In this document: positions 270-48,233 of the stretch, piece by piece
How positions within the stretch are numbered: the first letter of the stretch is position 1
How the letters are laid out: every line of letters begins with the position of its first letter
The notes under the pieces: generated by a model
Told to the model about the DNA's origin: nothing
What the model saw: the letters and a program-made list of their open reading frames with translations, nothing else
Database searches by the model: none
Translations under genes and position numbers: made by a program
Source of the DNA: a virus
DNA: 64,000 bases
Reading direction: 5' to 3' (one strand)
IMG/VR virus record: IMGVR_UViG_3300046713_000096
Coordinates: 1 to 64,000 of that record

Positions 270-1755
270 ACAGGTTGCTCGCTGCCCACCGTGACATATC
301 TCGCAAGGCGCCCTTGCCGATGAAAATATCTCGACCCGCTGCCAATCCAAGCGCGTTCTTCTGCACGGTCAGCAGATACCGATCGTCGAGCTGACGCGTG
401 GAAAAACCCGCGCCGTCGAGCCCGGGGCGCAGTCGCGGATCGAGCCGGCCCGTGTCGCTGAAGCTGTTGCCGGCGCTCGGTCGCGGGCTATTCGCCTCTG
501 CGTCCGACGTGCCGATGCGCATGCCACCGGGCGCAGTCTCGTCGAGCACGAGCCCGCACGCGACAGTGTCGATGTTCGCGATGCCCGACAGGAACGCAAG
601 CGATGGAACCTGCATGCCAGCGGCCCGGCGAAAATGTTTGATGTTGGCGTGCCAAAACTGCATGAGCTGCCGCGGCGTGACACCGCGCTGCACGCACTGG
701 ATCGCAGCTGCCGCGGCATATTTTCGTTCCGGGGTGCTCACGTCGTACGTGACCGTTGCTCGCCCGTTCGCTCGCTCTGCCGCGCGACGGTAGCGCGAGT
801 AAAGCCGGCACATCTCGGTTTCGAGTCGCTTCACGAGCGCGACCCGTTCCGGGTCTTTGGACTTGCGCCCGAGCACTTTGCGCATGAGCCGGTGCTTGTC
901 GCTGCGAGGGTCGAACGTCACGAGGTCGAGATCATTCCAATCGAGCACGTCGATGCCCCGGGCGCGGTTGCGTGCGTTCCGAACATCGCGACGCTGGCGC
1001 GTACTACTGCGTAGTACTGATCTTCTCTTCTTCTCTTCTAATTTAATTGATCCAATTAGATCCCTGTAAGCAGCCGTTTTGTCGAAATACGCGTCTTCGG
1101 ATATGAACTTATGGCGAATAACACGCGACGTTGAAGCGCCCATTTTCCCCGGCTTCCTGTTGTTAGAAAACGCGCCGACGCCTATGGCCTGATAGGGGTC
1201 GTCCGAAATCGATTGGTAACTACATGGCGAAACGGGTAACTGATCGACCGAAGTGGGTAACTGCATGGCGTTTTTGGGTAACGACCTGACGCACCCTATA
1301 TCTCCATAGGCATAGGCGGGATCCAGCGACACAGATTTGCCCGCGACCTGTTCTCGAAAATGCATCTCTGAAATCGGCGAGAACAGGAACCGGGCGAATC
1401 TAGTGAAGCTGTGGCCACGCTCAAGAAGTGGCCGGCGCACGATCACGATCACCGTTCGACGCCACGGCCCGTGCGGAATGAACTGCACGAAGCCCTTGCG
1501 TTCGAGCTCGCGCAAGAGCTCGTCGCCCTGTCGCCGCGAGTAGCCGAGCATGAGCGACAGCTTCGCGCGCCCGACGCGCAGCTCGCGCCGCTCGGCCACG
1601 GCCATGCGGATCCAGACTGCGAACGCGCCCCGGGTCAGCTGTCCGTACGCTTCTGCGAGGGCGCACGGGCCCTCGTTTGGGAACAGGGCAGGTGAGGCCT
1701 TCGTGCGCTCGCGCTTGCTCTCAAGAGGCCGGCGCTTGCCTAGACGGCGTCGCAT
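259..1755 (-). CDS. Phage replication initiator (lambda O-like), origin embedded in gene
   Basis: 498 residues starting at an ATG with GAGG about 8 nt upstream. Residues about 35-120 look like a winged helix (GRAKLSLMLGYSRRQGDELL, then a basic wing with RRTVIVIVRRP), typical of phage/plasmid initiators. The middle of the gene (1213-1293) carries four iterons with exact 21-bp spacing and an AT-rich stretch (1018-1072), as in the lambda O gene, where the origin is inside the coding sequence. The C-terminal half is basic and may contact the helicase or loader. It follows a helicase gene and precedes a DnaC-like ATPase. The role is inferred from context and fold; I do not recognise a specific family. 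Confidence 0.6.
   Translation of the reverse strand: MRRRLGKRRPLESKRERTKASPALFPNEGPCALAEAYGQLTRGAFAVWIRMAVAERRELRVGRAKLSLMLGYSRRQGDELLRELERKGFVQFIPHGPWRRTVIVIVRRPLLERGHSFTRFARFLFSPISEMHFREQVAGKSVSLDPAYAYGDIGCVRSLPKNAMQLPTSVDQLPVSPCSYQSISDDPYQAIGVGAFSNNRKPGKMGASTSRVIRHKFISEDAYFDKTAAYRDLIGSIKLEEKKRRSVLRSSTRQRRDVRNARNRARGIDVLDWNDLDLVTFDPRSDKHRLMRKVLGRKSKDPERVALVKRLETEMCRLYSRYRRAAERANGRATVTYDVSTPERKYAAAAAIQCVQRGVTPRQLMQFWHANIKHFRRAAGMQVPSLAFLSGIANIDTVACGLVLDETAPGGMRIGTSDAEANSPRPSAGNSFSDTGRLDPRLRPGLDGAGFSTRQLDDRYLLTVQKNALGLAAGRDIFIGKGALRDMSRWAASNLYAK
1018..1072. other. AT-rich stretch, candidate DNA-unwinding element
   Basis: A pyrimidine/A-T run (tcttctcttc, then taatttaattgatccaatta) stands out against the otherwise GC-rich sequence and lies about 140 bp from the iteron array inside the initiator gene. 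In iteron origins the melting region is AT-rich and adjacent to the initiator sites. Function is inferred from position and composition only. Confidence 0.45.
1213..1293. repeat. Iteron array: four GGGTAACTG-type repeats, 21-bp period
   Basis: Copies begin at 1213 (degenerate first bases), 1234, 1255 and 1276, with core GGGTAACTG followed by a variable dinucleotide and a TGrcGA-like end. The 21-bp spacing is two helical turns and seven codons, so the initiator shows a matching seven-residue repeat (QLPTSVD, QLPVSPC). The same core recurs six times at 63371-63922. These are most simply initiator-binding iterons of the replication origin. Confidence 0.7.
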
Positions 1756-3215
1756 TCGAGCACCTCTGCGCTGAACTCGCCCTCGCTCTTGTAGACCTTC
1801 AGGCGCGCCCGTGAGTGCTTCTCGAACACGCGCGACATGCAGTCGTAGAAGTCGACCATCAGCGGCGCCTTCTTCGAGCCCTCGACCACCGTCAGATTAC
1901 GCTGACGCTGCCAAGTCTGCTTTTCATCCTTGCCGCCTTCGGCGTTCACGACGACCTCGACGTCAGGGATGTCGACGCCCTCACCGAGCACGTTGCCGAC
2001 GAGCACGTGCGGCCCGCGCTTGCTCGTGAAGTCGTCGACGTAATCCATGCGCTGATCGTGCGACGTCTTGCCCGTGAGCACCCGGAACGGTACATCGTTG
2101 CTGTCGAGCATTTCGCAGATCGCGCGGATGTGCGCGTGCTCGCGCGCGATGATGATCGTCTTGCGCGGTGCAAGGTCGCGCACGATGGCTGCGATCATCG
2201 CGTTGCGTCGCTCGTTCTCGGTGATGCAGCGCTTCTTGAGCGTCGCGCTGTAGCTCGCTTCGCGCACGTCGTCGGGCTCGTGTACGCGGTACATCTTGAC
2301 CGACTGTGCGAGCAGGTAACCGGCCTGAATCAGTCGCGACGCTGACACCTCGTAGCGAATCGGCCCGCACGTGCCGCGAAGCCAGATGATGCCGCTCTCT
2401 TGCTCTTTCGTGTTGTCGAAGAACACCGTCGCCGACACGCCGATCTTGAACCGCGCGTCGAGATCGACGAAGACGCGATACCAATCGCCGTCGCCGCGGA
2501 TGTGGTGCGCCTCGTCGAACACGCCCACGTCGAAGCTCTTCATCAGCGATGCGTAGTCAGGGTGCGCAGCGCGGCCCGTCTTCTTCGCCGTCTTGCGCAC
2601 AGGCGACATGCTCGACAGCGACTGAATCGTCGCGACTGTGAAGAACTTCACGTCGTAAACGCCGTCGCCAATCTGCCCGATCTCTGCATCGGGCATGCAC
2701 TCGCGCAGGCTCGCGATCGTCTGATGCAAGAGCCACTTGGACGGCACGACGAAGAGTGATCGACGCCCGATCACGTGCAGCACCTTCGCGACCGTCTTCG
2801 TCTTGCCCGAGCGGATCGGCATCTTCAGCACACCGCGCCCGGGCACTTGGCCACCGAGCAGCGCGCGCACGGCTTCGATCTGGTAGTCGCGCAAGACTAC
2901 GTCTGTGTTCCACGTGATGCGCCGCTCTTCCGAGTTGAAGGCCCGCGCGTGCACGACTTCGTAGTCGACCTTGCGTTTCTTCAGCGCGCGCGCGATGTCT
3001 TCGGCCATGCCAGCGGGCGCGTGATAGCCCCTCGCCTGCGTGAACTTGAAGAGATGCTCTTTGCCATCCCAGCGGCGCGACTTGTAGGCGGGCGAAAACC
3101 AGTAGCCCGCCACGCGATACGAGCAGATTTTGTCGAGCGCGCGCAGCGTCTTCAGGTCGGCCTTGTCGACGCGTACGAACCGGTTCGAGATTGTCAGAGT
3201 GACGGCCACGCGCAC
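1740..3215 (-). CDS. SF2 DEAH-box helicase (UvsW/type III-res-like)
   Basis: 491 residues, GTG start. Helicase motifs in order: Q-like LRDYQIEAV (108-116), motif I PIRSGKTKT (133-141), motif II DEAH (234-237), motif III SAT (261-263), motif V GEGVDIPDV and a motif VI variant QTWQRQRN near the C-terminus. Residues 1-100 form a separate N-terminal domain with basic and aromatic residues, as in UvsW and XPB-like phage helicases. It would remodel forks or branched DNA in phage replication or recombination. Its stop overlaps the start of the initiator gene by 16 bp, placing it in the replication module. Confidence 0.85.
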   Translation of the reverse strand: MRVAVTLTISNRFVRVDKADLKTLRALDKICSYRVAGYWFSPAYKSRRWDGKEHLFKFTQARGYHAPAGMAEDIARALKKRKVDYEVVHARAFNSEERRITWNTDVVLRDYQIEAVRALLGGQVPGRGVLKMPIRSGKTKTVAKVLHVIGRRSLFVVPSKWLLHQTIASLRECMPDAEIGQIGDGVYDVKFFTVATIQSLSSMSPVRKTAKKTGRAAHPDYASLMKSFDVGVFDEAHHIRGDGDWYRVFVDLDARFKIGVSATVFFDNTKEQESGIIWLRGTCGPIRYEVSASRLIQAGYLLAQSVKMYRVHEPDDVREASYSATLKKRCITENERRNAMIAAIVRDLAPRKTIIIAREHAHIRAICEMLDSNDVPFRVLTGKTSHDQRMDYVDDFTSKRGPHVLVGNVLGEGVDIPDVEVVVNAEGGKDEKQTWQRQRNLTVVEGSKKAPLMVDFYDCMSRVFEKHSRARLKVYKSEGEFSAEVLECDAV

Positions 3216-3269
3216 TAGGTACCTATGCCCTCGCGTGCCCGCGCGTGATCGCCCGCCCCCGTGTGCGCA

Positions 3270-3767
3270 CTAGTGCGCGATGGCAATACCTGCGAGCGCC
3301 CCTGCAGCGGCGCCTACGGCCAGCCACACGATCGGCGAGCGCCACCATCGCCCGAGCTCGGCCCGCGCCTCGGTGGCGTCTGCAGTGGCCGCACTGGCCT
3401 CTTTCTCGCTCGCGACCACAGCGGCCGTCAGCTTGCCGTTCGCGGCCCGCTCAGCGTCGAGCGCGCCCCGAAGCGCCGTAACCTCGCTGGCGCGCGCGAC
3501 TTCCATTTTCCTGTAGGTTTCCAGCTGCAGTGTAAGCTCAACACCCAGCTTGACCGACCTCAAGAGCTCTTGGCCTTCGGCCAGCCTGAACCACGTGCCG
3601 CCGACGCCCCTGAACTTCATCGCGACGCACGTGCTCGTCGGCAGTGCGTTCGCCTCGGTGTCGCACGCGCGCGCCCGTGGCGCGCCCACAGCGAGCGCAA
3701 CGGCCACGAGCGCGCAGGTCGCCAGCCTACAAGCCAGCGTCCGAAAACAACTTTGCGATCTCTTCAT
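3270..3767 (-). CDS. Spanin candidate: signal peptide/lipobox-like Cys, coiled coil, C-terminal TM
   Basis: About 165 residues from the ATG at 3767 (a longer frame to 3815 exists). Visible: a basic N-terminus and hydrophobic segment (CALVAVALAVGAP) ending in ARAC, which is lipobox-like though not canonical; a long periplasmic part with heptad-like helix (about 75-140); and a C-terminal TM segment (IVWLAVGAAAGALAGIAIA). Outer-membrane lipid anchor plus C-terminal TM is the unimolecular-spanin layout of phage T1 gp11. It follows the i-spanin-like and holin-like genes, overlapping the former by 41 bp. Alternatively it could be the o-spanin of a two-gene pair. Function inferred. Confidence 0.5.
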   Translation of the reverse strand: MKRSQSCFRTLACRLATCALVAVALAVGAPRARACDTEANALPTSTCVAMKFRGVGGTWFRLAEGQELLRSVKLGVELTLQLETYRKMEVARASEVTALRGALDAERAANGKLTAAVVASEKEASAATADATEARAELGRWWRSPIVWLAVGAAAGALAGIAIAH

Positions 3768-4101
3768 CGGACGCCCCATCAGGTAACGGCTTAGCAGAAG
3801 CGAGCTCGACCGCACGCCGCTTGCTTTCCGTGATCTGTAGCTGAAGCTGCTTTACTTCGTCGCCGTGCACGTTTGCCTGCGCGGTCAAAATCTCGGCTTG
3901 CGCCTCGTCGCGCGCGACCGACGCCTTGATCTTCTGAACTTCGAGCGCGCCCTTCAGCGTCGAAACCTGATTCGTCTTCGAGCGCACCATCAGCACGGCC
4001 CCGGCGAGGGCGCCGATCGCGCCCGCGAGCGCAGCGGGGTGCGACCACAGCCACGCCCCGAAGCGCTTCAGCGCGGCCCAAGCGCCAGCGAGCCAGGTCA
4101 C
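3727..4101 (-). CDS. i-spanin/Rz-like: N-terminal TM plus coiled coil
   Basis: 124 residues, GTG start sharing GTGA with the upstream stop. A short hydrophobic region (about 22-42, HPAALAGAIGALAGAVLMV) is followed by a charged helix rich in K, E, Q and A (about 43-105). Single N-terminal TM with a periplasmic coiled coil is the Rz/i-spanin layout. It lies between the holin-like gene and a second spanin candidate. No enzymatic motif is present. Sequence similarity to named Rz proteins is not apparent to me, so the call rests on topology and position. Confidence 0.45.
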   Translation of the reverse strand: MTWLAGAWAALKRFGAWLWSHPAALAGAIGALAGAVLMVRSKTNQVSTLKGALEVQKIKASVARDEAQAEILTAQANVHGDEVKQLQLQITESKRRAVELASAKPLPDGASDEEIAKLFSDAGL

Positions 4102-4520
4102 GAATCGCCCTTCGGCGTCGCGCCTGCACCTGCAGGGGGTGGAACCTGCAGGGGTGGGGGTGGCAGTGTCTCAGCAAGCACGATGCCGCGCGACGTCATG
4201 AAGTGCTTGAATGCCGCGAACGTCCAGGCCGCCATGGCACCCGCGACGAAGTGATACAACGCGCGCGCAAGCCAGGTGTCATCAATGCCCGGCGATACTG
4301 GCATGCCGATCGCGCCCGCGAGCGCGCCCACGACAGGCGCGTGCAGCCCAAGCGACGAGTGCATGAAGGCCCAAAAGCCGCCCTTCTTCACGGCCCTGTC
4401 GAGCGTCCACACCTGTTTTTTGAAGAACTGCCCCACGATGCCAAGCGCGAACGACATGAACACGAACGGCCAGTGTGGCAATACGTATTGCTGCAAGAGC
4501 CCGAAGAAACCTTCGTCCAT
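4098..4520 (-). CDS. Holin-like membrane protein
   Basis: 140 residues; ATG with GAGGAT 7-12 nt upstream. Three hydrophobic segments can be seen (about 16-33, 58-75, 88-108), then a proline-rich hydrophilic tail. Small multi-TM proteins next to spanins are normally holins or antiholins that release the endolysin. It is the first gene of the lysis cassette, directly downstream of the fibre gene. I could not find an obvious endolysin beside it. Confidence 0.45.
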   Translation of the reverse strand: MDEGFFGLLQQYVLPHWPFVFMSFALGIVGQFFKKQVWTLDRAVKKGGFWAFMHSSLGLHAPVVGALAGAIGMPVSPGIDDTWLARALYHFVAGAMAAWTFAAFKHFMTSRGIVLAETLPPPPLQVPPPAGAGATPKGDS

Positions 4521-4537
4521 TTCAGATCCTCACTTTC

Positions 4538-6685
4538 TTACACGCCGTGAATCGTGTTCGGTCGGAACGGCGAGCCGGTCAAAATGACCGCGTCGCCCGC
4601 TGCATTCTGGCCGAAGACATGCAAGGTCCCCTTGACGTTCACCCCGCCAGCCGGCACGCAGTCGACGATGTGAAAGATGTTTTGGTAGCCGCTGACGTTG
4701 TTCATCGGCGTCTGCGCCACATCTTCTGCAACGATCGCGCTGAAAAGCGTGCCGTTGCTGTAGAAATACGCGACCTGCCTGTCGAGCAACGCGAGCCGAA
4801 AGCCACTTGCGGGAATGACGCCCGTGAGCTTTGTCGATTGATGCGTCCAGGTGATCCCGTCGTCCGAATGCGACAAGCCAAGGTCGCCACCGAGCGTGTT
4901 GCGAAGGGCCACGAATCCGAAGCGCGCTGAATACTGCAGCATCCTCGACAGGTAGGTCGTCGACGCGACCGTGCCCGACGCCCGCGCCGTCCAGGTGATG
5001 CCGTCGGGGCTCGTCATGACCTTGCCCGAGGCCGTCATCACGACAAACAAGGTCCCGTTTGTCTCGATCGCGAGATAGTTCTCGGTGGTCATGCCGACAG
5101 CGCCCGTGCGCTGCGTCCAGGCCGTCAGGTTCGTCGACGTCCACACGTCGCCACTGTCGCCGACCGCGCAATAGGTGCCGCCCTTGTAGGCGACGTCGCG
5201 CAAGATGTTTCCGCCGTTGAGCCGACGCGTCATCGCGCCGCTGATATACGACTGAATCTCGCCCGCGTTGCCGACAAGCGCGAACCCAATCGCGCCATAC
5301 GCGACCGCATTGAAGCCGGCACTGAAGGCCGCGTCCGGCGTCACTGAAAGCCACTGCTGCCCGGGCGTGAATCTGGCGATCGTGTTCGTGTCGCCGACCG
5401 CGAGCATTTGCACGATGTAGTCGTTCGGATCGTCGCCGTTGAAGTGCGTCGCGATGTCTCTGAACGCGCCGCCGCCGACGTCGGTGTAAACGACTTCCAA
5501 GCTGCGAATGGCTTCGAACTCGCTGCGTCGTTCGTTGAAGACAGCCGTTTCATTGAGACTCGTCTGCAGGGCCGCGAGCTGCAGCACGAGCGAGCTCGAC
5601 CCCATCGCGTAGGGGCTGCCCCCGGCGAGGTCCACGCCGTAGATCTTGCCTGTGCCGCCTGCACCGGTAGTCGACGTCAGATCCGTAACCAGCTTCGCAA
5701 GCTGCAGCCGCAACTGTGTTGCGGGGTTCGTTGTGCCGTCCGCCCATGCGGGCAAGTCGTCGGACGTCAGATCCGTGATGATCTTTTCGAGCGAAGCTTG
5801 CACCGTGCCGCCCGGATTGGTCGTGCCGTCGGCCCAATCGGGCAACGGACTGACCGTCACGAAATCAGCCGATTGCGACTGAATGATCTGCTGCCCCGTG
5901 ATGTCGAACGTTACCGGTGTGCCAGCGTTGCCGAGCACGGTGCCGAGGAAGAAGACGCTTTCGGGCAGCTGCGACGGTCGATTCGACGCCCCGTTTGCGA
6001 GCACGGTCAGGCCAATCAGTTGCACGAGGTATGCGCTCGCAGTGGCTGATGCCGACGTCTGCCCGAGCAGGCCCGTCGTGGTGATCTTGTTGTGGCCGCC
6101 GCTGTAGAACACGGTACACGTCTCGATCGCAACGGCTTCAGACGTCGCCGCGTCGCCTGGCACAGACAGAAAGACGCGCACCTGTCGCCCCGCATGGTTG
6201 CCCGGGGTGATGCCTTGCTCGAACAGACTGTCGACCACAAAAGTCAGCGTCGAAGCGCCGACCGCCACGCTGTCAGGGGTGGCCGCGACGCCGATCCCTT
6301 CTCGCATGTGGTCGTATTCGAACTTGCCGGTGCGTGGGTTCGTGCGGATCCCGACGGGATATTCGATATACGCGGCGCCGACCTCGTACGTCTGACCGTT
6401 CACGTTGGGGAAGTACGCCACTCGGTCGATCTCTTCGAGGTCGAGAAGGCGGCCGCTGCCGTCGTGCGCCATGCCATCGAGCTCGGTAGGTTTCAGATCG
6501 GCCCTTACCCTTCCGGCACCGGGGCTTGACAGCGGCAGCCGCTCTAAGAACGCGCCCTGAATGAACAGGCGCTTGACGGCTTGGCTCGTGCGGTCGCTAA
6601 GATACTTCAGCGTCCACAGGTCGAAGTCGCGCACGCCCAAAAGCTTCTTGTCGGTCACGAGGGCGAAGTCTGATCCGGTCGGCAT
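4538..6685 (-). CDS. Tail fibre protein with sialidase-type (Asp-box) C-terminal repeats
   Basis: 715 residues, ATG with an AAGGGGA ribosome site. The N-terminal third is a structural domain with no motif I know. The C-terminal half has propeller-like repeats including Asp-box motifs SPDGITWT and SDDGITWT, as in sialidase/BNR beta-propellers. Near residues 285-330 a short segment repeats (LPDWADGTTNPGGT and LPAWADGTTNPATQ). The position after the gpI-like gene fits a receptor-binding fibre. The Asp boxes are fold markers; glycosidase activity is not implied. Confidence 0.65.
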   Translation of the reverse strand: MPTGSDFALVTDKKLLGVRDFDLWTLKYLSDRTSQAVKRLFIQGAFLERLPLSSPGAGRVRADLKPTELDGMAHDGSGRLLDLEEIDRVAYFPNVNGQTYEVGAAYIEYPVGIRTNPRTGKFEYDHMREGIGVAATPDSVAVGASTLTFVVDSLFEQGITPGNHAGRQVRVFLSVPGDAATSEAVAIETCTVFYSGGHNKITTTGLLGQTSASATASAYLVQLIGLTVLANGASNRPSQLPESVFFLGTVLGNAGTPVTFDITGQQIIQSQSADFVTVSPLPDWADGTTNPGGTVQASLEKIITDLTSDDLPAWADGTTNPATQLRLQLAKLVTDLTSTTGAGGTGKIYGVDLAGGSPYAMGSSSLVLQLAALQTSLNETAVFNERRSEFEAIRSLEVVYTDVGGGAFRDIATHFNGDDPNDYIVQMLAVGDTNTIARFTPGQQWLSVTPDAAFSAGFNAVAYGAIGFALVGNAGEIQSYISGAMTRRLNGGNILRDVAYKGGTYCAVGDSGDVWTSTNLTAWTQRTGAVGMTTENYLAIETNGTLFVVMTASGKVMTSPDGITWTARASGTVASTTYLSRMLQYSARFGFVALRNTLGGDLGLSHSDDGITWTHQSTKLTGVIPASGFRLALLDRQVAYFYSNGTLFSAIVAEDVAQTPMNNVSGYQNIFHIVDCVPAGGVNVKGTLHVFGQNAAGDAVILTGSPFRPNTIHGV

Positions 6686-6720
6686 GGCAAAATCCCCTTA
6701 TCGGCTAGCAGGGCTTAGGC

Positions 6721-7983
6721 CTAGCTAGCGCCTTGAATGTCGATGAAGTCTTCTTCGAGCGGCAGAAAGAACATTTCCACCTCGCGAACCTCGATCGCGT
6801 TCGATACGAAGCCGCCCAAAAAACCGAATGTGCCCTGCGCAAAAGTACTGTCGAGCACGCTCAGCATGAAATTGCCGTTCAGCCAGGCAGTGATCCTCGT
6901 CTGGCCGTTCTCTTCCACTGCCTGCACACGCAACGTATGCGCCTGCGCATCGTCGGTGAACCACACGTCAGGACCGATCGCGACCTCGGGATAGTCCGGC
7001 GCATAGGTCATCGCCACACCGAGCAGCGTCGGCACGCCAGCGACCAACACGTAGATCGCAACCTGCCCGGATTGATACGACACGAAGTAGCTATCGGTGT
7101 CGCTTTGTCGGTACACCTGAAACACCATGCCAGCCGCCTTGAACGTGACGCTGACGCAGTAGTTTTGCCACGCACTCGACGCGCTCGGATTCGCATGGAC
7201 CGTGTCGCTCGCCCCGTTCAGAAACATCGACCCGTCGTGCACGGCTGGCGAGGGCCCGCTTTCGGTCCATTGGCTCGCGTCGTCGTCGACCGTGAACAGG
7301 TCGAGAAACCCGAGGTAGCTGATCGTGATGCGCTCGCCACCGGGCCGCGTCAGCTTCACGAGGTTACGCACGAGCCGGCGATTGAGCGTGCCGTCGTCGA
7401 CGATGCGCACGTTCATTTGATTCTCGGGATGCTCGGACGTGCCCGGTAGTTCGAGCATCCATGAATCGAACCCCTCGTGCGTCTCGCCGACGCTCGTCTC
7501 GTCCGCGATATAGCGCAAGTCGAACCAGTCCAGCACCCGCGTGCGTGCCGCCGTGGTCAACTGAAGGATCTCGCCCAAAGCATCTTCCGTGCCCCGAACT
7601 TTCCAGAAGGGCACGCTCGTCGCGATGAGCCGGCGCAGTGTCGCCGCGTCGAGATCGTCTGTGATGAAGTCGAGCTCGCTTGTCCACCCCACGATCCATT
7701 TCAAAAACGGCAAGAAGCGGTCGGCGCATTTCGTGATCGACCACATGTCAGGCAGCGATCGAATCGAAGCGTCGATCCCTGCCCACACGCTTTGCGGCCC
7801 ATTGAGAAAGCGCTCGACGAAGCGATCGCCGTCGACTTGATCTGCCTCGCGAATGCCTTCGATCAGAAACGGATAGATGCGCAGCGAGAGTTGTCGCCGC
7901 GGTTCCGACGGCAGCACGAATCCGATCATCGGGCTCGAAGCCGAATGAAACGGATTGCCGGCGAGGTCTTGAATGGTGCTCAT
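6721..7983 (-). CDS. Baseplate/tail protein I-like with LamG-like C-terminal domain
   Basis: 420 residues. The N-terminal half matches the P2 gpI 'phage tail protein' pattern: LPFLKWIVGW, then LRRLIATSVPFWKVRGTEDA (about 88-130). The C-terminal 200 residues look like a laminin-G/concanavalin beta-sandwich (GMVFQVYRQSDTDSYFVSY, HTLRVQAVEENGQTRITAWL). Start overlaps the stop of the upstream gene as ATGA. gpI links the baseplate to the fibres, consistent with the position between gpJ and the fibre genes. The fused lectin-like domain probably contacts the host surface. Confidence 0.7.
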   Translation of the reverse strand: MSTIQDLAGNPFHSASSPMIGFVLPSEPRRQLSLRIYPFLIEGIREADQVDGDRFVERFLNGPQSVWAGIDASIRSLPDMWSITKCADRFLPFLKWIVGWTSELDFITDDLDAATLRRLIATSVPFWKVRGTEDALGEILQLTTAARTRVLDWFDLRYIADETSVGETHEGFDSWMLELPGTSEHPENQMNVRIVDDGTLNRRLVRNLVKLTRPGGERITISYLGFLDLFTVDDDASQWTESGPSPAVHDGSMFLNGASDTVHANPSASSAWQNYCVSVTFKAAGMVFQVYRQSDTDSYFVSYQSGQVAIYVLVAGVPTLLGVAMTYAPDYPEVAIGPDVWFTDDAQAHTLRVQAVEENGQTRITAWLNGNFMLSVLDSTFAQGTFGFLGGFVSNAIEVREVEMFFLPLEEDFIDIQGAS

Positions 7984-9611: not shown

Positions 9612-10894
9612 ACGAGCCCCCATGCCGTGCCGTTGTAGACCCAGTGCAACGACACACCAGCTGCGCCGATCGTGAAGCTCGCAGCGAAGGCTTCTGCGAC
9701 TGGATCCCAGATGTTGACCCCGTTGCCACTGACCGTGATCGCTCGTGTGCTGCCGCCCGTTTCCAGGACAGCGAACTGAGCGCCTGCCAATGGTGAGCCC
9801 GGCGCTGTCAGCGTGAAAGTGCTCGCTGTCGGGTTGTAGCCTTGCCGCACGCCGCTCGTGATAGTGGTGTTGCTTGTTACGACCCCTGCCCAAAACATAT
9901 CGTCATCGCTCCCTTCGGCCAAAACTACATCCGTAATAGCAATTGAATCGGTTCCGCGGACCGACTTGGTCAACGACGTCCTGCCCAAGTCGGAAACAGA
10001 AACGAAGTCAGTGGGGATCCTGAACGAGTAGCTGCATGCAATCGAGACAGCGTCCGCAGTGTCGACACTGTCTTGAAGCGTTTTCTTGAAGAAGTAGGCC
10101 GCGGCAATCGCAAGCAGATCGACAGCGTCGACAGCGTCTTGCATCGTTACGCTGTGAAAGAGTTTCGGATCTTCCACCGTGAGCGAGTAGAGCTGCCCCG
10201 GAATCTGTGAAGTCGTCTGCAGCGTGACCACGTTGGCGACAACACTGCGCACCGCAATCGTCGAAAGGCCGCCTGTCCAGGTGTAATTCAGGGGATCATT
10301 CGCTTCTGCGTTGTTCTCGATCGGCTCGTCAAAATGCACTTCGACTTCGGTTGCCGACACCGCGAGCACGACCTTTAGCTTCGGCGAGACGCCGATGCCG
10401 ACATAGGGCACCGGCACCGTGGAACCGACTTCGCCCGCGGCGCCACGAATCGACGAGGTCAAAGCTACTTCGTAGTCCGCCTCGTTCGTGTGCTCGGTAG
10501 TCTCAATTTCGACGTATAACGGGTTAGCCTGCCCCGGTGGCAGGCTAACGCTCAGCGGCACGACCTCGACGCTGCCCGATGAGACGTTTGTGAATCGGTA
10601 ACTCGAAGCGCGAGTCAGTGCCGTGTTGATCGTCGCAGGGCGCTCGAAGTCGATGCGAATGCGGGTTTCTGAGAACGCGCGGACTTGACTGATCTTCAAC
10701 GCGATCGAAATGGCTGCGATCAAAGAATCCGCGATCGCGACCGTGTCGGTCAGGCGACGAGCAGCATTCAACGCGCTCTGCAGGCGGTCGGCTACCGATA
10801 GCGTGTCGGTCGAGCTCGATGCCTGAAAAAGCCGCGAAGAGATCGCGTCTGTCACGCCAATCGTATCGCCTATGGTGGCGGTAAATTCGGACAT
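9608..10894 (-). CDS. Tail fibre/adhesin-like protein with repeated D-x-V-x-V-x-D motif
   Basis: 428 residues from the ATG at 10894, which overlaps the gpJ stop (TGATG). Short repeats dominate both ends: DTIGVTDAI, DTLSVADRL, DTVAIADSL, DAVDAVDLL, DSVDTADAV, DFVSVSDLG, DSIAITDVV. Between them (about 100-260) are Ig/fibronectin-like beta segments (SATEVEVHFDEPIENNAEAN, as in bacterial Ig-like folds). The last 80 residues form another beta domain. A structural tail protein is likely; the same short motif occurs in the product of 27178-27645. Confidence 0.5.
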   Translation of the reverse strand: MSEFTATIGDTIGVTDAISSRLFQASSSTDTLSVADRLQSALNAARRLTDTVAIADSLIAAISIALKISQVRAFSETRIRIDFERPATINTALTRASSYRFTNVSSGSVEVVPLSVSLPPGQANPLYVEIETTEHTNEADYEVALTSSIRGAAGEVGSTVPVPYVGIGVSPKLKVVLAVSATEVEVHFDEPIENNAEANDPLNYTWTGGLSTIAVRSVVANVVTLQTTSQIPGQLYSLTVEDPKLFHSVTMQDAVDAVDLLAIAAAYFFKKTLQDSVDTADAVSIACSYSFRIPTDFVSVSDLGRTSLTKSVRGTDSIAITDVVLAEGSDDDMFWAGVVTSNTTITSGVRQGYNPTASTFTLTAPGSPLAGAQFAVLETGGSTRAITVSGNGVNIWDPVAEAFAASFTIGAAGVSLHWVYNGTAWGLV

Positions 10895-26071: not shown

Positions 26072-27178
26072 TCACGTCCAGGTTGGATTTGCAGGTGCAG
26101 CCATTCCGATCGGCGCCTTGTAGAGCTTCACGATCATCTGCACTTCGGGGTCGTTGATCAGGCCCGACAAGCCGGGCGCACGCGCCCTGATGTCGCCGCC
26201 TGCGATGTCGTACTTGATCGAGTGCCCGTCGGTGACTTCTTCGCGCACGAGGCCGGCTGTGATCGGTGGCGGGGTGAGGCCGCCGCCTGCGCCCGACACG
26301 AGGGGACTGGACAGGTCAGCGATCACGAGCTTGAGCGTCGCGCGCTTGATCAGCGCTGGCGTCGAGCCGTCCTGTTCGATGTAGCCGAACACGCCTCTGA
26401 TGAATTGATTTTGACGCCCCTTGAAAAAGCGACTTCGCGACGTGCGGTCTGATGCCGTGTAGATGTCGCGACCGTAGCCGTCGAAGTTGTCGACGAGCTT
26501 GATGCGCGGGTTCTTCCGGTCGTCCGGAAGCTGTCGCCCTGCATAGACTCTGTACCTTGCGGCTGTCAGCGCGTTCGAGTCGGTGTTGATCCGAAGCTCG
26601 CTGACCGAGATGATCGGCACGGGCAGGTGCAGCGTGTCGCTGTCGGTGCCGTCGAGACGAAACTCGCACGCGATCGGCCTGAACCACTGGCGCGTCACGC
26701 GTTCGAGCACTTGTTGCCACAGCATGATTGACGCGAAGATCGTTGCGTCGTCGGGCGGATTTGCGTTCAGGCCCGCGGCTCGCACGTCCGCGACGCTGAT
26801 GTACAGATCGCCCGAGCCGATCGAGACATCCGACAGCACCTCGAACTCTTCCGTGTAGGACTGCTCGGGACTCGTGAGCAGGTACCTCGAAAACCAGCGG
26901 ATCTCATGCGTCCCGATCAGCTCGACGAGCGGCACTTCGTAGTCGGCCACGTAGTGGCCGGTGTCCAAGCGCCCGCCTGTCGGGTATGGGTTCAGGTTGA
27001 CGGTCTGCCGACCGCTCGAAGGATAGACCTGCACGGGCACGCCCGGGGTCGACACCTTCTCGAAGATCTGAAACGACAGTTCAGCCACATTGATCGGTGT
27101 GCCTGCGCTGCTTTTCATGAACACATCGAGCTTCGGATTGTCGCCGTCGCTCACTTCGCCTCGCGTCATTGCTGGCAT
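26072..27178 (-). CDS. Head-tail connector/adaptor protein (gp6-like) with extra N-terminal domain
   Basis: 368 residues from the ATG at 27178, which overlaps the upstream stop (TAATG). The longer frame to 27472 is a shadow. N-terminal about 115 residues form an Ig-like beta domain (NPKLDVFMKSSAGTPINVAE, TGGRLDTGHYVADYEVPLVE). From about 120 it is helical with YISVADVRAAGLNANPPDDA and IMLWQQVLERVTRQWFRPI, the helical-adaptor pattern of gp6-like connectors. Probably attaches to the portal. Confidence 0.6.
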   Translation of the reverse strand: MPAMTRGEVSDGDNPKLDVFMKSSAGTPINVAELSFQIFEKVSTPGVPVQVYPSSGRQTVNLNPYPTGGRLDTGHYVADYEVPLVELIGTHEIRWFSRYLLTSPEQSYTEEFEVLSDVSIGSGDLYISVADVRAAGLNANPPDDATIFASIMLWQQVLERVTRQWFRPIACEFRLDGTDSDTLHLPVPIISVSELRINTDSNALTAARYRVYAGRQLPDDRKNPRIKLVDNFDGYGRDIYTASDRTSRSRFFKGRQNQFIRGVFGYIEQDGSTPALIKRATLKLVIADLSSPLVSGAGGGLTPPPITAGLVREEVTDGHSIKYDIAGGDIRARAPGLSGLINDPEVQMIVKLYKAPIGMAAPANPTWT

Positions 27179-27645
27179 TACCCTATCGCCTCCACGTTGT
27201 CGGTCAGCACGACCGTAATGCTCGCGCTCGACACGAGCTGATCTGTCACCGCGACGAAGTCGCCCGATCTCGTCACGAAAACGACCGGGCCCGGGCCGGT
27301 CGAGATGTCGGGCCCGCCTGACATCGACAGGGGCCCCGCGCCGTCGACGCTCGCAAAGCTGATCGGACCGATGCCTACTGCGTCGTCCGCGCCCTGCAAG
27401 ACGAGAACGAGGTCGCCTTCGTTCGCGGCGTCTTCCACTGCGAGAACGTCGCTGACGACACGCGCGAACCAAGTCATGCGCCCAAACAGATCCGACGCAG
27501 TGACGGCGTCAGTCGACAGCGAGAGCACGTCAACGGTCAGCGCATCGCCGACCGTCGCTACATCACTCGCGCCGGCCCCGAGCACGCGCTGCACGCGCAG
27601 CTCGTCAAGCAGTGTAACGTTCTCGCTGAAATCATAGGCTGCCAC
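27178..27645 (-). CDS. Small virion protein with D-x-V-x-V-x-D repeats
   Basis: About 155 residues from a GTG at 27645 with GAGG 10 nt upstream; the longer frame to 27933 is out of register with the neighbour and looks spurious upstream. Repeats include DVATVGDAL, DAVTASDLF, DVLAVEDAA, DFVAVTDQL. These match those of the fibre protein at 9608-10894. Low-complexity, glycine/proline middle (GAGPLSMSGGPDISTGPGPV). Position in the connector region suggests a minor virion protein. Confidence 0.5.
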   Translation of the reverse strand: MAAYDFSENVTLLDELRVQRVLGAGASDVATVGDALTVDVLSLSTDAVTASDLFGRMTWFARVVSDVLAVEDAANEGDLVLVLQGADDAVGIGPISFASVDGAGPLSMSGGPDISTGPGPVVFVTRSGDFVAVTDQLVSSASITVVLTDNVEAIG

Positions 27646-27700: not shown

Positions 27701-28045
27701 TCAGAGCTCGAAAACGTTTCGGCACACTGGATCCGAGCACACGCGCTGCGTCGTTGCGCCCGCTCGACCCGACTGAAGCACCTTAGTCTCGCGCCCGCAC
27801 TGCGGACACGGAAAGTGCGGGCGCGGGTCGAACGGTCCGGTGCGCTCGGCCTCTTGTTGCGCGGTGTGGATGAGACGGCATCCATGCCATGAGCATATGC
27901 GCTGCGACTCGTCATGACGTGGCGGCTCGCCATGCTCGCGCGACTCTGCGCCGCAACTTGGACAGGGGAAGACGGGATCGACGGGCACAGCCTCGATTGT
28001 GGCTGCGACCCCGTCTTCGACCTGCGCTCGATCTTTCGCTGCCAT
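27701..28045 (-). CDS. Tandem zinc-ribbon protein
   Basis: 114 residues from the ATG at 28045, overlapping the upstream stop (TGATG). Two similar zinc-ribbon units: FPCPSCGAE...CSWHGC (about 30-60) and FPCPQCGRE...CSDPVC (about 77-109), each CxxC plus CxxxC. Internal duplication is plain. Such small zinc ribbons are common in phages, but one within a connector module is unusual. Function unknown. Confidence 0.65.
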   Translation of the reverse strand: MAAKDRAQVEDGVAATIEAVPVDPVFPCPSCGAESREHGEPPRHDESQRICSWHGCRLIHTAQQEAERTGPFDPRPHFPCPQCGRETKVLQSGRAGATTQRVCSDPVCRNVFEL

Positions 28046-28539
28046 CAGGTGATCCGCACGTTGTAGGTCAGCTTGAGCTTGTCCGCCGTCGTCTTGTTGA
28101 CCGACGAGAACACCGCGCGCATGAGCGCAGACCCGCCCGGGCTCGTGTTTTGATTGAGCACCACGACTTCTTTGATGCCCGTCGCCGACTTCGAGCCGAC
28201 GCCCGAGGGGTAGCTCACGACGAGCTGAAATGTGCGGGTGCCAGCCAATAGCGTCTTGAGATCGGCTGTGTTGATCGTGCCGGTCACAGGCGACACCACG
28301 TTCGTTTGACCGCTCGCAGCGGCCACGCCACACGTGCCGATGCGTAGCTGATCCCAGTCGTTCGCGTTCAAGCCGCATGCTTGACGCCACGTCTGGCGCT
28401 TGCCCGTGTTCACGACCAAGTTGTGCGTGCGCACGTGCTTGATCACCTTTGGACCATCGCCGCTGTCGCGAATCACTTCGATGTCCACCCATCCACCGAA
28501 GTCGCGATTATCGAGAACGTCTTGAATGCCCTGCGTCAT
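28045..28539 (-). CDS. Unknown beta-rich structural protein
   Basis: 164 residues, ATG start. Contains IEVIRDSGDGPKVIKHVRTH and the motif HNLVVNTGKRQTWRQACGLN (about 39-58), a pattern often seen in phage fibre-attachment or virion surface proteins, and a beta-rich C-terminus (ALMRAVFSSVNKTTADKLKL). Lies downstream of the glycosyltransferase fusion and could be a virion decoration that the enzyme modifies. That link is speculative. Confidence 0.55.
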   Translation of the reverse strand: MTQGIQDVLDNRDFGGWVDIEVIRDSGDGPKVIKHVRTHNLVVNTGKRQTWRQACGLNANDWDQLRIGTCGVAAASGQTNVVSPVTGTINTADLKTLLAGTRTFQLVVSYPSGVGSKSATGIKEVVVLNQNTSPGGSALMRAVFSSVNKTTADKLKLTYNVRIT

Positions 28540-28545
28540 GTCGAC

Positions 28546-30390
28546 TTAGTCCTCTCGTGCTGAGCGCCCGTTGAGCGCCCCTTCGATCAGTGTAACGTTG
28601 GCCCTCGCTTCGGCGAAAGCTTCGGCCGGGGCGTCGTCTGGCAAGAGCTCGACGACGCGCTTGCACCATGCCAGCGCCTCGGAATAAAGCCCGAGCTCAC
28701 CACAGACCATCGCCAGCCGCTGCGCTGGCAAGTACGAATAGAACGAGAGGTCGATCCACCACACGGTCACCGGGGGCTCGCCAATCGCCGTTGCCCCGAG
28801 CGTGTAGAATCGGCGCGCCTTCTCGTGGTCCTTCGCAAGGTACGCGATGTCACCCAACCATACGAAGTGTTCCGAACGCGACCAGTCATCCCGCGTGCAC
28901 TCGTGAAGCGCAGCGGAAGCTTCTTTCATGCGACCTTGGATCATGTACTCTTTGGCCAGCACGAGGCGCGCCTGATACTTCTGCACGCCGTTGTTGCTCA
29001 CGACGAGAAACTCTTCGAGCCGTTCGAGCGAGCGAGCGACGTCGAGGTCGCGCCATTCTTGTCCGAGGTAGAACAGGCTGGCCTCTGACTTGCGCGAAAG
29101 CCAGTCATCAAGTAGCGCGCTTCTGTTCTGGGCCTTGCGTTGTTTGGCGCGGGTCGCGCCCCGTTCGGGGTGGCGATCGTGGTACGTCTTGACCTGTGCG
29201 AGGGTCACCGCGAAGGTGCCCTCGGGGAAGTCGAGCACGTTGTGCACCGGGCGACTGAAGCGGATGTCGGATGCGTTCTGAAAGAGCCAAGGAAACGCCC
29301 ACTGCTGACCGTTGCCCTGACGTAAAACGAAGCCGACGCGAGCGGCCTTCGGCATGATCACGTCGAGCGCGCGCAGCACATCGTGTCCCGCGACTACGCG
29401 CTCGTGACCTTCAGTCATGAAGATCCAGTCGCCCGAGCACTGTTCGATGCACTGGTTACGGGCCCATGCGAAGTTGATCCCAGCCTCGCCCATGTACTCT
29501 TTGCACGCGCCCTTGCAGATCTCGCACTCAGCGATCGAGTGCCCATCGGGCGGGCCCATCGGGTCGCGCAGAAAGAACACCTTGTCGGCGTACGCTGCAG
29601 CGACGTCCCACGTGTTGTCAGTCGTGCGCGGATCGATGCCGACGACGAGCTCGTCGGCGAAGCCGCGCAGCGACGCAAGGGTCGGTTCGAGGTCGTGCCC
29701 TTCGTCGCGCACGGGCAGCGTCGCCGAAAGCCGATAGGACTTCTGCGCAAGCGGCCCGCACACCGCGAGCAGGAAGGGTCCGAGCACTTCGATCCGCACG
29801 TCGGCGAAGTGCGCTTGCAGCTCTTGCTTGAGCGATACCGCCGTGAACTTGACCGCGTGCTGTGGCTCTTCGTCCGGACCGAGCCGGTTATTCGGGACGC
29901 TGATCAACGCGCCAGCATGACGCCCCGTGTTATGGGTCATGGCGTCGAGCACGACGTTACGCGTATGCGACGACAAGTGCTCGAAGCACTCGGTCGACAC
30001 GAACAGATCGACGCGCTCGAAGGCGACATACAGGCTGTCGCTTTCGAGGTCGAGGCGCTGCGCGATGGGTCGACGTAGCCCGGCCCCGCGTTGCCGGGCT
30101 AGTTCGAGCGCTACTTCGCTGTTGTCGACGATCGTGACCTCGCCTACTTTGGGCAGGTCGAGCAGCTTTTCGGCAAGCACACCGACGCCGCCCCCGATAT
30201 CCATCACGCGCATGCCGTCGACGCGAACGCCGCCTACGAGCGCCTGCACGCGCGCGTACACACGCGCAAGCGCCTGCGCGCGCCACGTGTCTTCGCCCTC
30301 CCTTTCCCAAAGGTGATCCCACAGATCCGCCGCGTTGTGCCTTCGGGCTTGCTCTTCGTCGCGCTCTTGTTGGGCAATGGCTTCGACCAT
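28546..30390 (-). CDS. SAM methyltransferase - family 2 glycosyltransferase - TPR fusion
   Basis: 614 residues, ATG start. Residues 1-210: class I methyltransferase with motif I VMDIGGGVGVL (63-72) and VDLFVSTECFEHL (128-139). Residues about 218-420: GT2 fold starting LSATLPVRDEGHDLEPTL, with GIDPRTTDNT in place of DDGSTDGT and DWIFMTEGHERV (321-332) in the place of the acidic metal/base motif; an inserted CEICKGAC (289-296) may bind zinc. Residues about 440-600: TPR-like helical repeats. GT2-TPR proteins such as SunS modify peptides; in a virion gene block, it may glycosylate a phage structural protein or precursor. The substrate is unknown. Confidence 0.75.
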   Translation of the reverse strand: MVEAIAQQERDEEQARRHNAADLWDHLWEREGEDTWRAQALARVYARVQALVGGVRVDGMRVMDIGGGVGVLAEKLLDLPKVGEVTIVDNSEVALELARQRGAGLRRPIAQRLDLESDSLYVAFERVDLFVSTECFEHLSSHTRNVVLDAMTHNTGRHAGALISVPNNRLGPDEEPQHAVKFTAVSLKQELQAHFADVRIEVLGPFLLAVCGPLAQKSYRLSATLPVRDEGHDLEPTLASLRGFADELVVGIDPRTTDNTWDVAAAYADKVFFLRDPMGPPDGHSIAECEICKGACKEYMGEAGINFAWARNQCIEQCSGDWIFMTEGHERVVAGHDVLRALDVIMPKAARVGFVLRQGNGQQWAFPWLFQNASDIRFSRPVHNVLDFPEGTFAVTLAQVKTYHDRHPERGATRAKQRKAQNRSALLDDWLSRKSEASLFYLGQEWRDLDVARSLERLEEFLVVSNNGVQKYQARLVLAKEYMIQGRMKEASAALHECTRDDWSRSEHFVWLGDIAYLAKDHEKARRFYTLGATAIGEPPVTVWWIDLSFYSYLPAQRLAMVCGELGLYSEALAWCKRVVELLPDDAPAEAFAEARANVTLIEGALNGRSARED

Positions 30391-32133: not shown

Positions 32134-33330
32134 TCAGACACCCTTGCCGATGTTTCGCACCTTGACGATCGCGCTCAGCTCTTCGAACTGCACGTCGACC
32201 TTCGAGGTGATGGCGTACTGATTCACGCCTTTGTAGATGTCGCGATCCTTCTCGATTCGAACGTCGCGACCGATGCCCACGACGAAGTTGTTCTGATGCG
32301 TGAGCAGGATTTGCGGGCTCGAACGGTAGGTCACCTTGACGACCTCGCCGCTCGCGATGGCGCCGCCACCGTTGCGCGCGATGGTGCCTGCAGCTGCGTC
32401 GAGTACGTAGTCGGTGGTCAAGATGTACGCTTCGGTTGGCGAGGCACCGAGCTCGTCGACGTGCACCGTGACGTCGGTGATCGCGCTGTTCTTGAGCGCC
32501 ACGACAGTCGTACCAGTCAGCGTCACGTGCTCGACAGTCAGGGGCTCGAACTCCCAAAGGGGCACGGGCACGGCTGTAATCCCGAACGGGCCGGGCATGC
32601 CGCCGCCGCCCTGCGCAGCGTTGTCACCGAGCGAAGTGCCGCGCGTCGCCAACTTTTCGAGGTACAGCTGCCACAGGTCGGGCGAGATGAACCAGCGTAG
32701 CGCGCTACGGTTGCGCCGGAACTTCGTAGGCAACGCGCGGATCGCTTTGCTGAACACCGACAGGCCGATGTTTTGGCCGAGTGCGTCGACCACATTCGCA
32801 CTGTCACCGAGCAATGACCAGCCGTCGGACAGCGCAAGGAACGAATCCTTGATCGCGTCACTCGAACCGCCTTCGAGAATGTCGCTTTGCGGCACAGCCG
32901 GGCCGAGCTTGTTGCCGTTGATGTAGAGATCTTCGAGATCGTTCGCGAGCTGTGTTGCCATCAGGCGAATGATCGTCTCTTCGACGTTGTCGCCTTCGAT
33001 GTTCAGCTCGCGGAAGTTGTCGCCGATCTCGAACGGCACGATCAGCTCGTGCGGGGTGATCGTGATCTTCGACGTGGTGATCCCGCGACGCACTTGCGGA
33101 TCGACGCCCTCGGACTTCGGCATAGCGACGCGCCGACCGACGCCGATTTTGTCGATGTCGAGGTTCTCATTGCGGAACCGCACGATTCGCGCGTTGTCTT
33201 TCAGAACCGTCTCGTCGATCACGTAGTCGAGGAAGCGATCGGACTGCGCATCGTTCAGCTTGCCGCCCGTCGCGAGATTGTCCGCGACGATTGTGGCCTT
33301 CCTGACGAGCTCTTCGTTTGCGATGGTCAT
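32134..33330 (-). CDS. Major capsid protein (HK97-fold type) with inserted Ig-like domain
   Basis: 398 residues, ATG start. Pattern of phage major capsids: N-terminal ELVRKATIVADNLATGG, mid-region FEIGDNFRELNIEGDNVEET and ATQLANDLEDLYINGNKLGP, and C-terminal LLTHQNNFVVGIGRDVRIEK with IYKGVNQYAITSKVDVQFEE. A probable Ig-like or beta insertion lies near residues 260-330 (VTLTGTTVVALKNSAITDVT, AYILTTDYVLDAAAGTIARN). Sits downstream of protease and scaffold genes as expected. Confidence 0.85.
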   Translation of the reverse strand: MTIANEELVRKATIVADNLATGGKLNDAQSDRFLDYVIDETVLKDNARIVRFRNENLDIDKIGVGRRVAMPKSEGVDPQVRRGITTSKITITPHELIVPFEIGDNFRELNIEGDNVEETIIRLMATQLANDLEDLYINGNKLGPAVPQSDILEGGSSDAIKDSFLALSDGWSLLGDSANVVDALGQNIGLSVFSKAIRALPTKFRRNRSALRWFISPDLWQLYLEKLATRGTSLGDNAAQGGGGMPGPFGITAVPVPLWEFEPLTVEHVTLTGTTVVALKNSAITDVTVHVDELGASPTEAYILTTDYVLDAAAGTIARNGGGAIASGEVVKVTYRSSPQILLTHQNNFVVGIGRDVRIEKDRDIYKGVNQYAITSKVDVQFEELSAIVKVRNIGKGV

Positions 33331-46862: not shown

Positions 46863-46895
46863 TGCAGCGATAGCCTACAAAACAAGAGGTATTTG

Positions 46896-48233
46896 ATGTC
46901 GAAAGCACAGGGAAAAGCACCGATCGTCGAGGCCCGCGCACGCGGCACCGTCGAATGGCGTCCCGAAAAAGGGGGGCGCTACATTGCCAAGATCAGCGCC
47001 CCCGGTGGTCGGCGCGTGTATGAAGAAATGGTCGACGACGATGGGGCCTTTCTGTTCACCGACAGAGAGAAGGACGAAGACGCGGCCCGTCGATGCGCTG
47101 CCGAGTATTCGGCAGCGGTGCGCAACACCGACGCGCCCATGCCCGACCGGCTTCGGTTCGAAACGACCGTGCGCATGTTCGGCGAAGAGTGGACGTCGGG
47201 AAAACTTCTGCTGAAGCACGGCAAGGTCAAACGGCTGAAGGCCAAGAAGTCGGTCGACGACGACGTGCGCCGACTCGAACAACACGTCTACCCGTACATC
47301 GGAACGCTGGCCGTCTCGGCCGTGACTGAGCAGCACATCGAACAAGCTTTCGCGAAGGCATGGGTCGCCTTCGAAAAGCGATACGGCTACGAGCCTTCAT
47401 CTGGTACGCGACGTCAGGTGTACATGGTGACGCACCGGCTCTTCGACCTGTCGGTCAGGCCCGGGCGCTTGCGCAAAGACAACCCGGTCGACATCGGGCT
47501 CTTGCCCGAGCCCGATCCCGAGAAGCTCTACAGCTATTTGTACCCGAGCGAGCTTTTGATGTTGCTGAAGTGCGTCGAGATCCCGATCGAGCGTCGCGTT
47601 TACTACGCGCTCGCGACGTACACCGGCCTGCGCAAGGGCTCGATCCTTGTCGCGTCGAAAAGGAAACGGGGCAACGCGAACGAAGACGATAACCTGATCA
47701 AGCGCTACCTGTGGTCGTCGATCGACCTCGAACACTCGACCGTGCTCAGCTTGATCAACAAGAACGGCAGACCACAACTTTTCGATCAGCTCGACGACAC
47801 ACTGCCCGGGCTCGGCTCGCTGATCGAGTTGCTTCGTCGCTGGCGTGAATACAGCGGATGGCCACCTGACTCGGCACCGATCATCGAGACGCTTCACTGT
47901 CGACGACGCAACGAAGCCGCGACGCTTCGACAAGATCTGCTCGTCGCTGGCGTCACGCGCGGCATACTCTTCTCGAACACCGACGAGATCCAAGCGCTGC
48001 GCTTTCACGACTTGCGCGCGACGTTCGTCACGTGGGCAAAGCGCGCAGGCAAACACGACGGCTGGATCAAGCATCGGACCGGCCACATCACCGACACGAT
48101 CATGGAACGATACAACCGCGCAGCGAGCAACGTCAGCGAGCTGCGCATGAAGCCCGGCCCGTTCCCTGACATCTCGCTTGCGATTCCCGAGCTCGTCGAC
48201 GTCAACGTGACTCGGCTGAAGCGTCGACGCTAG
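46896..48233 (+). CDS. int: Tyrosine recombinase/phage integrase
   Basis: 445 residues from the ATG at 46896 (AGAGGT 6 nt upstream). N-terminal strand-rich arm-binding-like domain (WRPEKGGRYIAKISAPGGRR), central SAM-like core-binding domain (about 80-190), C-terminal catalytic domain: TGLRKGS (catalytic Arg about 246), FHDLRATF (His/Arg about 371-374), HRTGH (about 393-397) and Tyr in ERYNRA (about 406). Next to attP, divergent from the minus genes and convergent with the excisionase-like gene. Confidence 0.9.
   Translation: MSKAQGKAPIVEARARGTVEWRPEKGGRYIAKISAPGGRRVYEEMVDDDGAFLFTDREKDEDAARRCAAEYSAAVRNTDAPMPDRLRFETTVRMFGEEWTSGKLLLKHGKVKRLKAKKSVDDDVRRLEQHVYPYIGTLAVSAVTEQHIEQAFAKAWVAFEKRYGYEPSSGTRRQVYMVTHRLFDLSVRPGRLRKDNPVDIGLLPEPDPEKLYSYLYPSELLMLLKCVEIPIERRVYYALATYTGLRKGSILVASKRKRGNANEDDNLIKRYLWSSIDLEHSTVLSLINKNGRPQLFDQLDDTLPGLGSLIELLRRWREYSGWPPDSAPIIETLHCRRRNEAATLRQDLLVAGVTRGILFSNTDEIQALRFHDLRATFVTWAKRAGKHDGWIKHRTGHITDTIMERYNRAASNVSELRMKPGPFPDISLAIPELVDVNVTRLKRRR

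Follow-up and report, generated by a model that had tools for sequence, protein, structure and literature searches.

A methyltransferase–glycosyltransferase–TPR fusion encoded next to a fibre-like protein in the virion gene block of a contractile-tailed phage

A single gene in the virion gene block of a contractile-tailed phage encodes a protein with a methyltransferase, a GT2 glycosyltransferase (GT) and a TPR domain, and in 34 of the 36 homologous loci that we found in IMG/VR this gene is directly followed by a homologue of the same gene for a small fibre- or collar-like protein (hereafter the partner). It is very probable that the two genes form a functional unit. By analogy with known protein glycosyltransferases, the TPR-guided GT domain may glycosylate the partner and the methyltransferase domain may O-methylate the added sugar, a mechanism to which, taken as a whole, we give an even chance. 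The sequence analysed (the window) covers 64 kb of an IMG/VR record that is 100,854 bases long.

Domain architecture and distribution of the enzyme

The enzyme (614 aa) is encoded at positions 28546–30390 of the minus strand by one unbroken open reading frame of 614 codons; the plus-strand reading of the same segment was rejected, as stop codons break its frame. Comparison with Pfam showed a methyltransferase match at residues 62–151 (E = 2e-8), a GT2 match at residues 225–275 (E = 7e-5, which is at the cut-off) and a TPR match at residues 558–586 (E = 9e-7). All three domains are nevertheless firm, because a Pfam scan of 32 homologues detected GT2 in 28 of them (best E = 1e-10), Methyltransf_25 in 28 and TPR_2 in 24. 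The AF2 model, built with the family alignment as input, has a mean pLDDT of 90.7. In Foldseek searches with this model, the GT and TPR part matched SunS/ThuS (E = 8e-15), whereas the methyltransferase part matched Hen1 (3jwi, E = 1e-7) and other SAM methyltransferases. We place the methyltransferase domain at residues 18–216 (29743–30339, minus strand), on the basis of the Methyltransf_25, Hen1 fold and profile matches, the GT2 domain, which has a GT-A fold, at residues 217–440 (29071–29742, minus strand), where the chosen end takes in the first helices beyond the GT core, and the C-terminal TPR-type helical domain, defined by Pfam TPR models and modelled helices, at residues 441–614 (28549–29070, minus strand). 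No strongly hydrophobic 19-residue segment was found in the enzyme (the maximal mean hydropathy over all members is 1.56) and, as there is no membrane-like segment, the protein is consistent with a soluble cytosolic enzyme.

Two scans of IMG/VR revealed full-length or near-full-length colinear relatives in 36 further loci, with best-segment tblastn identities of 31–78%, on contigs of 6 to 452 kb. The recurrence of a colinear frame in 36 other contigs shows that the three-domain frame is not a chance reading, and the fusion put forward in the original prediction is in this way confirmed by the reading frame, the Pfam and Foldseek matches and the predicted structure as well as by its homologues. 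Some of the loci are near-duplicates (e.g. L003/L005, L010/L011, L013/L014, L016/L019 and L027/L035), leaving ∼ 30 independent lineages. No full relative of the enzyme was found in cultured phages, which yielded only weak partial GT matches, or in plasmids. None was found in the GTDB genomes either, in a scan with two exact peptide patterns, one of them containing E-x-H, that divergent copies can escape; a similar scan with a few exact peptide patterns of the partner, which divergent copies can likewise escape, returned no full relative of that protein. The GT2 and TPR part (residues 306–586) is matched by phrog_13126, annotated as 'beta-1,4-glycosyltransferase' (E = 4e-7), so that GT2-TPR phage proteins are already catalogued; this 394-position profile does not cover the methyltransferase. 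A narrow literature search found no report of a phage methyltransferase–glycosyltransferase fusion with tail fibre glycosylation.

The gene pair and its surroundings

The genes on one flank of the enzyme code for the terminase, portal, minor head protein, protease and major capsid protein, and those on the other flank for the head-tail adaptor, neck protein, tail sheath, tape measure and baseplate, which agrees with the originally predicted position in a block of virion genes. Judging from these genes, including those for the tail sheath and baseplate, the source is a contractile-tailed phage, that is, a virus of bacteria or archaea. The major capsid-type virion protein (32134–33330, minus strand; phrog_1623, E = 9e-73) matches major capsid proteins of Streptomyces phages with 39% identity over 57% of its length, which does not fix the host, and the head-tail adaptor (26072–27190, minus strand) matches phrog_442 (E = 4e-8). 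Elsewhere in the window, an integrase-like gene (46893–48233; phrog_1, E = 1e-20, with the Pfam integrase match below the cut-off) is located on the plus strand, opposite to the virion genes, a hint that the phage may be temperate, and the minus-strand segment 50849–51568 encodes a C-5 cytosine DNA methylase (PF00145, E = 1e-37) that is shorter than the profile.

The partner gene (28045–28539, minus strand), which codes for 164 aa, lies 6 bp downstream of the enzyme gene. It is directly followed by a gene (27701–28042, minus strand) for a protein of ∼ 113 aa with two CxxC-type Cys clusters resembling a zinc ribbon, relatives of which come after the enzyme–partner pair in a dozen or so of the first 19 loci. 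The two exceptions to the pairing are L029, whose contig ends inside the enzyme gene, and L028, in which a different gene comes next; in this AT-rich phage the exact position of the partner is taken by an apparent HNH homing endonuclease gene (9831–10460, plus strand). The reading frames of the enzyme and the partner overlap in 19 of 31 loci (with start codons picked by a script), and the pair is intact in L007, L013, L015, L016 and L019, where no other window gene is detectable between ∼ 9 and 46 kb. The position of the pair varies, after the neck gene in L008 and after the tail sheath gene in L018, and in L037, the most distant member, the pair is on the strand opposite to its upstream neighbours, which we read as replication genes. 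The distances between enzymes correlate with those between partners (r = 0.73, 0 of 5000 permutations, 28 loci), as would be expected of a co-inherited pair, and no neighbour other than the partner is conserved across the loci. These features, and above all the presence of the partner directly downstream even in loci without any other gene in common with the window, make it the likely client of the enzyme.

A reverse search with the partner returned 36 contigs, 35 of which were informative (L059 is cut at the contig edge). In three of the 35 (L056, L062 and L063), there was no enzyme beside the partner or elsewhere on the available contig; these enzyme-less partners lie among apparent baseplate and fibre genes, two of these genes having collagen-like runs. 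With the partner present but the enzyme missing in three related phages, the modification would not be obligatory, which fits a structural protein that is optionally modified.

The AF2 model of the partner is mostly to all beta, with a pLDDT of 84. In a Foldseek search of BFVD, it had the fold of several tail fibre and tail-collar fibre proteins (E values down to 3e-7), most of the better matches being unnamed proteins; the partner also has a match in phrog_5417, and one member of its family matches phrog_4176, tail fiber. A further fold match was to a 953-residue chain of the HFTV1 tail, which, judged by its length, is probably the baseplate hub gp44. The hhalign comparison of the partner profile with HFTV1 gp44 was not significant, so the link between the two is one of fold. 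In L016, a 219-aa protein encoded upstream of the enzyme (2051–2710, plus strand) contains the sequence GHNIWVNLGR, which resembles the HNLVVNTGK motif of the partner, and may be another protein with this fold.

Adjacency is linkage and does not by itself establish the partner as the client. The enzyme, encoded as it is in the virion block, could instead modify another virion protein, such as the major capsid protein, a collagen-like or long fibre protein or the product of a large downstream gene, in which case the partner would act as its carrier, take part in assembly or bind the finished glycan as a lectin. The occurrence of partners without the enzyme is in line with such a division of labour, as are some of the neighbouring genes. 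In L020, the gene directly upstream of the enzyme (873–7841, plus strand) encodes a protein of 2322 aa containing collagen-like G-x-y runs of great length, with GVTGATGPQG abundant in them, which is a possible glycosylation client in that phage, and large genes for unnamed proteins of 965–1577 aa are found between the pair and the head-tail adaptor in L004 (11875–16404), L006 (11006–13903) and L031 (11729–16462); two of these have no PHROG match, and the window has a short gene at that place. However, G-x-y runs adjoin the enzyme in L020 only, so that a collagen-like client was rejected as a general rule, and it is the partner alone that recurs next to the enzyme. A different virion client therefore seems rather unlikely to us, albeit not negligibly so, and we continue to regard the partner as the best candidate.

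Conserved motifs of the two putative catalytic domains

A profile of the GT part, compared with PDB, had its best match in GmaR (E = 2e-14), followed by SunS and ThuS. In these alignments, the family sequence WIFMTEGHE is opposite WIVAIDADE of GmaR, WIYFIDADN of SunS and WIYYIDADN of ThuS, indicating that the D-A-D (D-x-D) motif of these enzymes has turned into E-G/A-H. The replacement, E327-G-H329-E330 (29401–29412, minus strand), is kept as E-[GA]-H-E in 37 of 37 family sequences, a count to be read with some caution as to sampling, since the search pattern of the second scan included the E-x-H motif itself; in the first scan, only one of the six patterns covered the FMTE part, and all 19 of its loci have the motif. 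The altered catalytic motif TEGHER, pointed out in the original prediction, is thus no oddity of a single phage but a fixed, family-wide replacement, so far seen as a putative metal-binding motif only in viral sequences. The suggestion that its chemistry may be new found no support, as E-x-H may still be able to form a metal site: DXH serves as one in the mucin-type GalNAc-transferases.

Absence of the canonical D-x-D from all members could also mean that the GT domain is catalytically dead, a binding scaffold in a protein whose only activity is that of a protein methyltransferase. One would expect the sequence of an inactive domain to drift, yet not only E327, H329 and E330 but also D253, D258, H383 and H404 of this domain are invariant, and we consider loss of its activity improbable. 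An active GT domain with a putative E-x-H metal site thus remains the preferred reading. Among its cysteines, C318 is invariant and C314 is conserved in at least 90% of the family. The CEICKGAC insert (C289, C292 and C296), which belongs to a segment of the form GH-x4-C-x2-C-x3-C (residues 283–300; 29491–29544, minus strand), is indeed there as described, but its proposed relevance to catalysis found no support. It occurs with variable spacing in 10 of 37 members and is thus accessory, and with 27 of 37 lacking it, a role in the catalytic core was rejected; the region has low AF2 confidence and looks like an optional loop that possibly binds zinc.

The N-terminal domain has the Rossmann-type fold and motif I (D-x-G-G-x-x-G) of class I SAM methyltransferases, and its profile matches SAM methyltransferases including Hen1 and UbiG. 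The SAM-binding motif D-I-G-G-G-V-G (residues 64–70; 30181–30201, minus strand) is conserved across the family, with D64 and G70 invariant and G66–G68 at least 90% conserved. Also invariant in the family alignment are E134, E137, H138 and H178 (29857–29991, minus strand), which may form a metal site. The best PDB match for a profile of this stretch was Hen1 (4xrp), at an E value of 0.03 that makes it suggestive only; in this alignment, TEVLEH of the family is opposite TEVIEH of Hen1, and the later His falls in its DHHFEW region. At 25 bits, the NCBIfam cut-off for Hen1 (TIGR04074, 340) was not reached. Hen1 is a metal-dependent O-methyltransferase, and the His equivalent to H138 is a magnesium ligand in HEN1 and essential in UbiG (PMC9774615). 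The proposal that the enzyme O-methylates a sugar comes from the substrates of these relatives, since Hen1 and UbiG both act on vicinal diols and methylate one of the two hydroxyls.

Hen1 is a ribose 2'-O-methyltransferase of RNA 3'-ends and, with phage glycosyltransferases that hypermodify DNA known from work cited in PMC12619734, one could picture an enzyme of nucleic acids, whose GT domain would glycosylate modified bases of phage DNA or whose Hen1-like domain would methylate RNA ends. However, unlike Hen1, the enzyme has no RNA-related partner or domain at its locus; its gene stands with virion genes and a fibre-like partner, and the acceptors of its nearest GT relatives are peptides or proteins. 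Moreover, a search of the 100.9-kb record, which is possibly incomplete, detected no hydroxymethylase of the thymidylate synthase family, while the control genomes were positive. Modification of nucleic acids is accordingly very improbable, and a protein acceptor, as in the closest GT relatives, is favoured instead.

Comparison with known systems and the proposed role of the pair

By its fold and architecture, the enzyme appears to belong with the GT2-TPR glycosyltransferases, differing from them in the missing D-x-D and the additional methyltransferase. The flagellin O-GlcNAc transferase GmaR of Listeria monocytogenes consists of GT2, TPR, linker and antirepressor parts, and client recognition has been proposed for its TPR (PMC9638930). 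GmaR shares with the enzyme the order of a GT2 domain and a TPR-type helical domain and modifies a structural protein, as we propose here, whereas it has D-A-D-E in place of E-[GA]-H-E and an antirepressor domain of its own rather than an N-terminal methyltransferase. SunS, which comes from the prophage SPbeta, and ThuS are glycocin S-glycosyltransferases with peptide acceptors and, although they are the best Foldseek matches over the GT and helical C-terminal parts, they have D-A-D and no methyltransferase domain; the NCBIfam cut-off for SunS (TIGR04195, 350) was not reached, with only L037 listed, at 28 bits. The gene for SunS is clustered with that for its substrate SunA (PMC6405829), a parallel to the enzyme–partner pair. 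In FlmG, the flagellin glycosyltransferase of Caulobacter, the TPR part binds the client (PMC7591256); this cytosolic protein follows the same logic of a client-binding TPR joined to a glycosyltransferase domain, and no more than the logic, as its GT is of the GT-B type and its TPR is at the N-terminus. As a precedent for virion glycans only, glycosylated virion proteins of mycobacteriophages are reported by Freeman et al. 2023, as cited in PMC12619734, where the targets given are capsid and tail-tube proteins.

GT2 enzymes commonly work in the synthesis of cell-surface glycans, and methylated sugars cap bacterial glycans; the enzyme could thus modify the surface of the host, blocking superinfection or changing the receptor, and its position in the virion block would be incidental. 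Given its near-obligate pairing with a fibre-like protein, the lack of a membrane-like segment and the fact that its closest solved relatives modify proteins or peptides, such a role is unlikely. Modification of a phage structural protein, as originally suggested, is strengthened by the partner gene next door, with the modification itself, its suggested timing during assembly and the identity of the client all being predictions.

In the infected cell, the soluble enzyme would grip the phage structural protein, most likely the fibre- or collar-like protein encoded immediately downstream, through its C-terminal TPR domain, by analogy with FlmG and GmaR. Its GT-A domain, with the putative E-x-H metal site, would then transfer a sugar from a nucleotide-sugar to a side chain of this protein. 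The acceptor is most likely a Ser or Thr hydroxyl. Whereas SunS and ThuS target Cys of a bacteriocin peptide, about ten enzyme-linked partners contain no Cys, so that, with the partner as client, the clustered Cys acceptors of the SunS family have no counterpart and S-glycosylation is disfavoured as the general chemistry; Ser, Thr and Asn are equally conserved in partners with and without the enzyme, giving no acceptor-site signal. We infer that both domains are active and that the Hen1/UbiG-type methyltransferase acts second, O-methylating the added sugar, for which its E-x-x-E-H...H metal site would suit vicinal diols. The host would have to supply the nucleotide-sugar donor: no other glycosyltransferase was found in the record by a PF00535 search, which missed the enzyme itself and is too insensitive to exclude others, and at this sensitivity the record revealed neither a nucleotide-sugar gene nor any other glycan gene.

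More tentatively, and at a probability well short of even, the pair may be a mobile two-gene module in which a single polypeptide glycosylates the fibre protein of its phage by means of a metal centre of the E-x-H type, a catalytic variant that none of the related enzymes of solved structure shows. Its Hen1-like domain would then O-methylate the sugar, so that a protein for adhesion or decoration receives a capped glycan.

That proteins of phage virions can be glycosylated is already known; what is new here is the near-obligate fibre-like partner gene beside the enzyme. To our knowledge, few enzyme–client pairs have been described for the glycosylation of phage virion proteins, and in this case the sequence by itself suggests which enzyme and which neighbouring client may be involved and gives a precise active-site prediction (E327/H329). 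If the proposed mechanism is true, phages carry self-contained kits for placing capped glycans on fibre-like proteins, which would be relevant to adsorption, stability and host recognition, and the metal site of a GT-A enzyme can be rebuilt as E-x-H.
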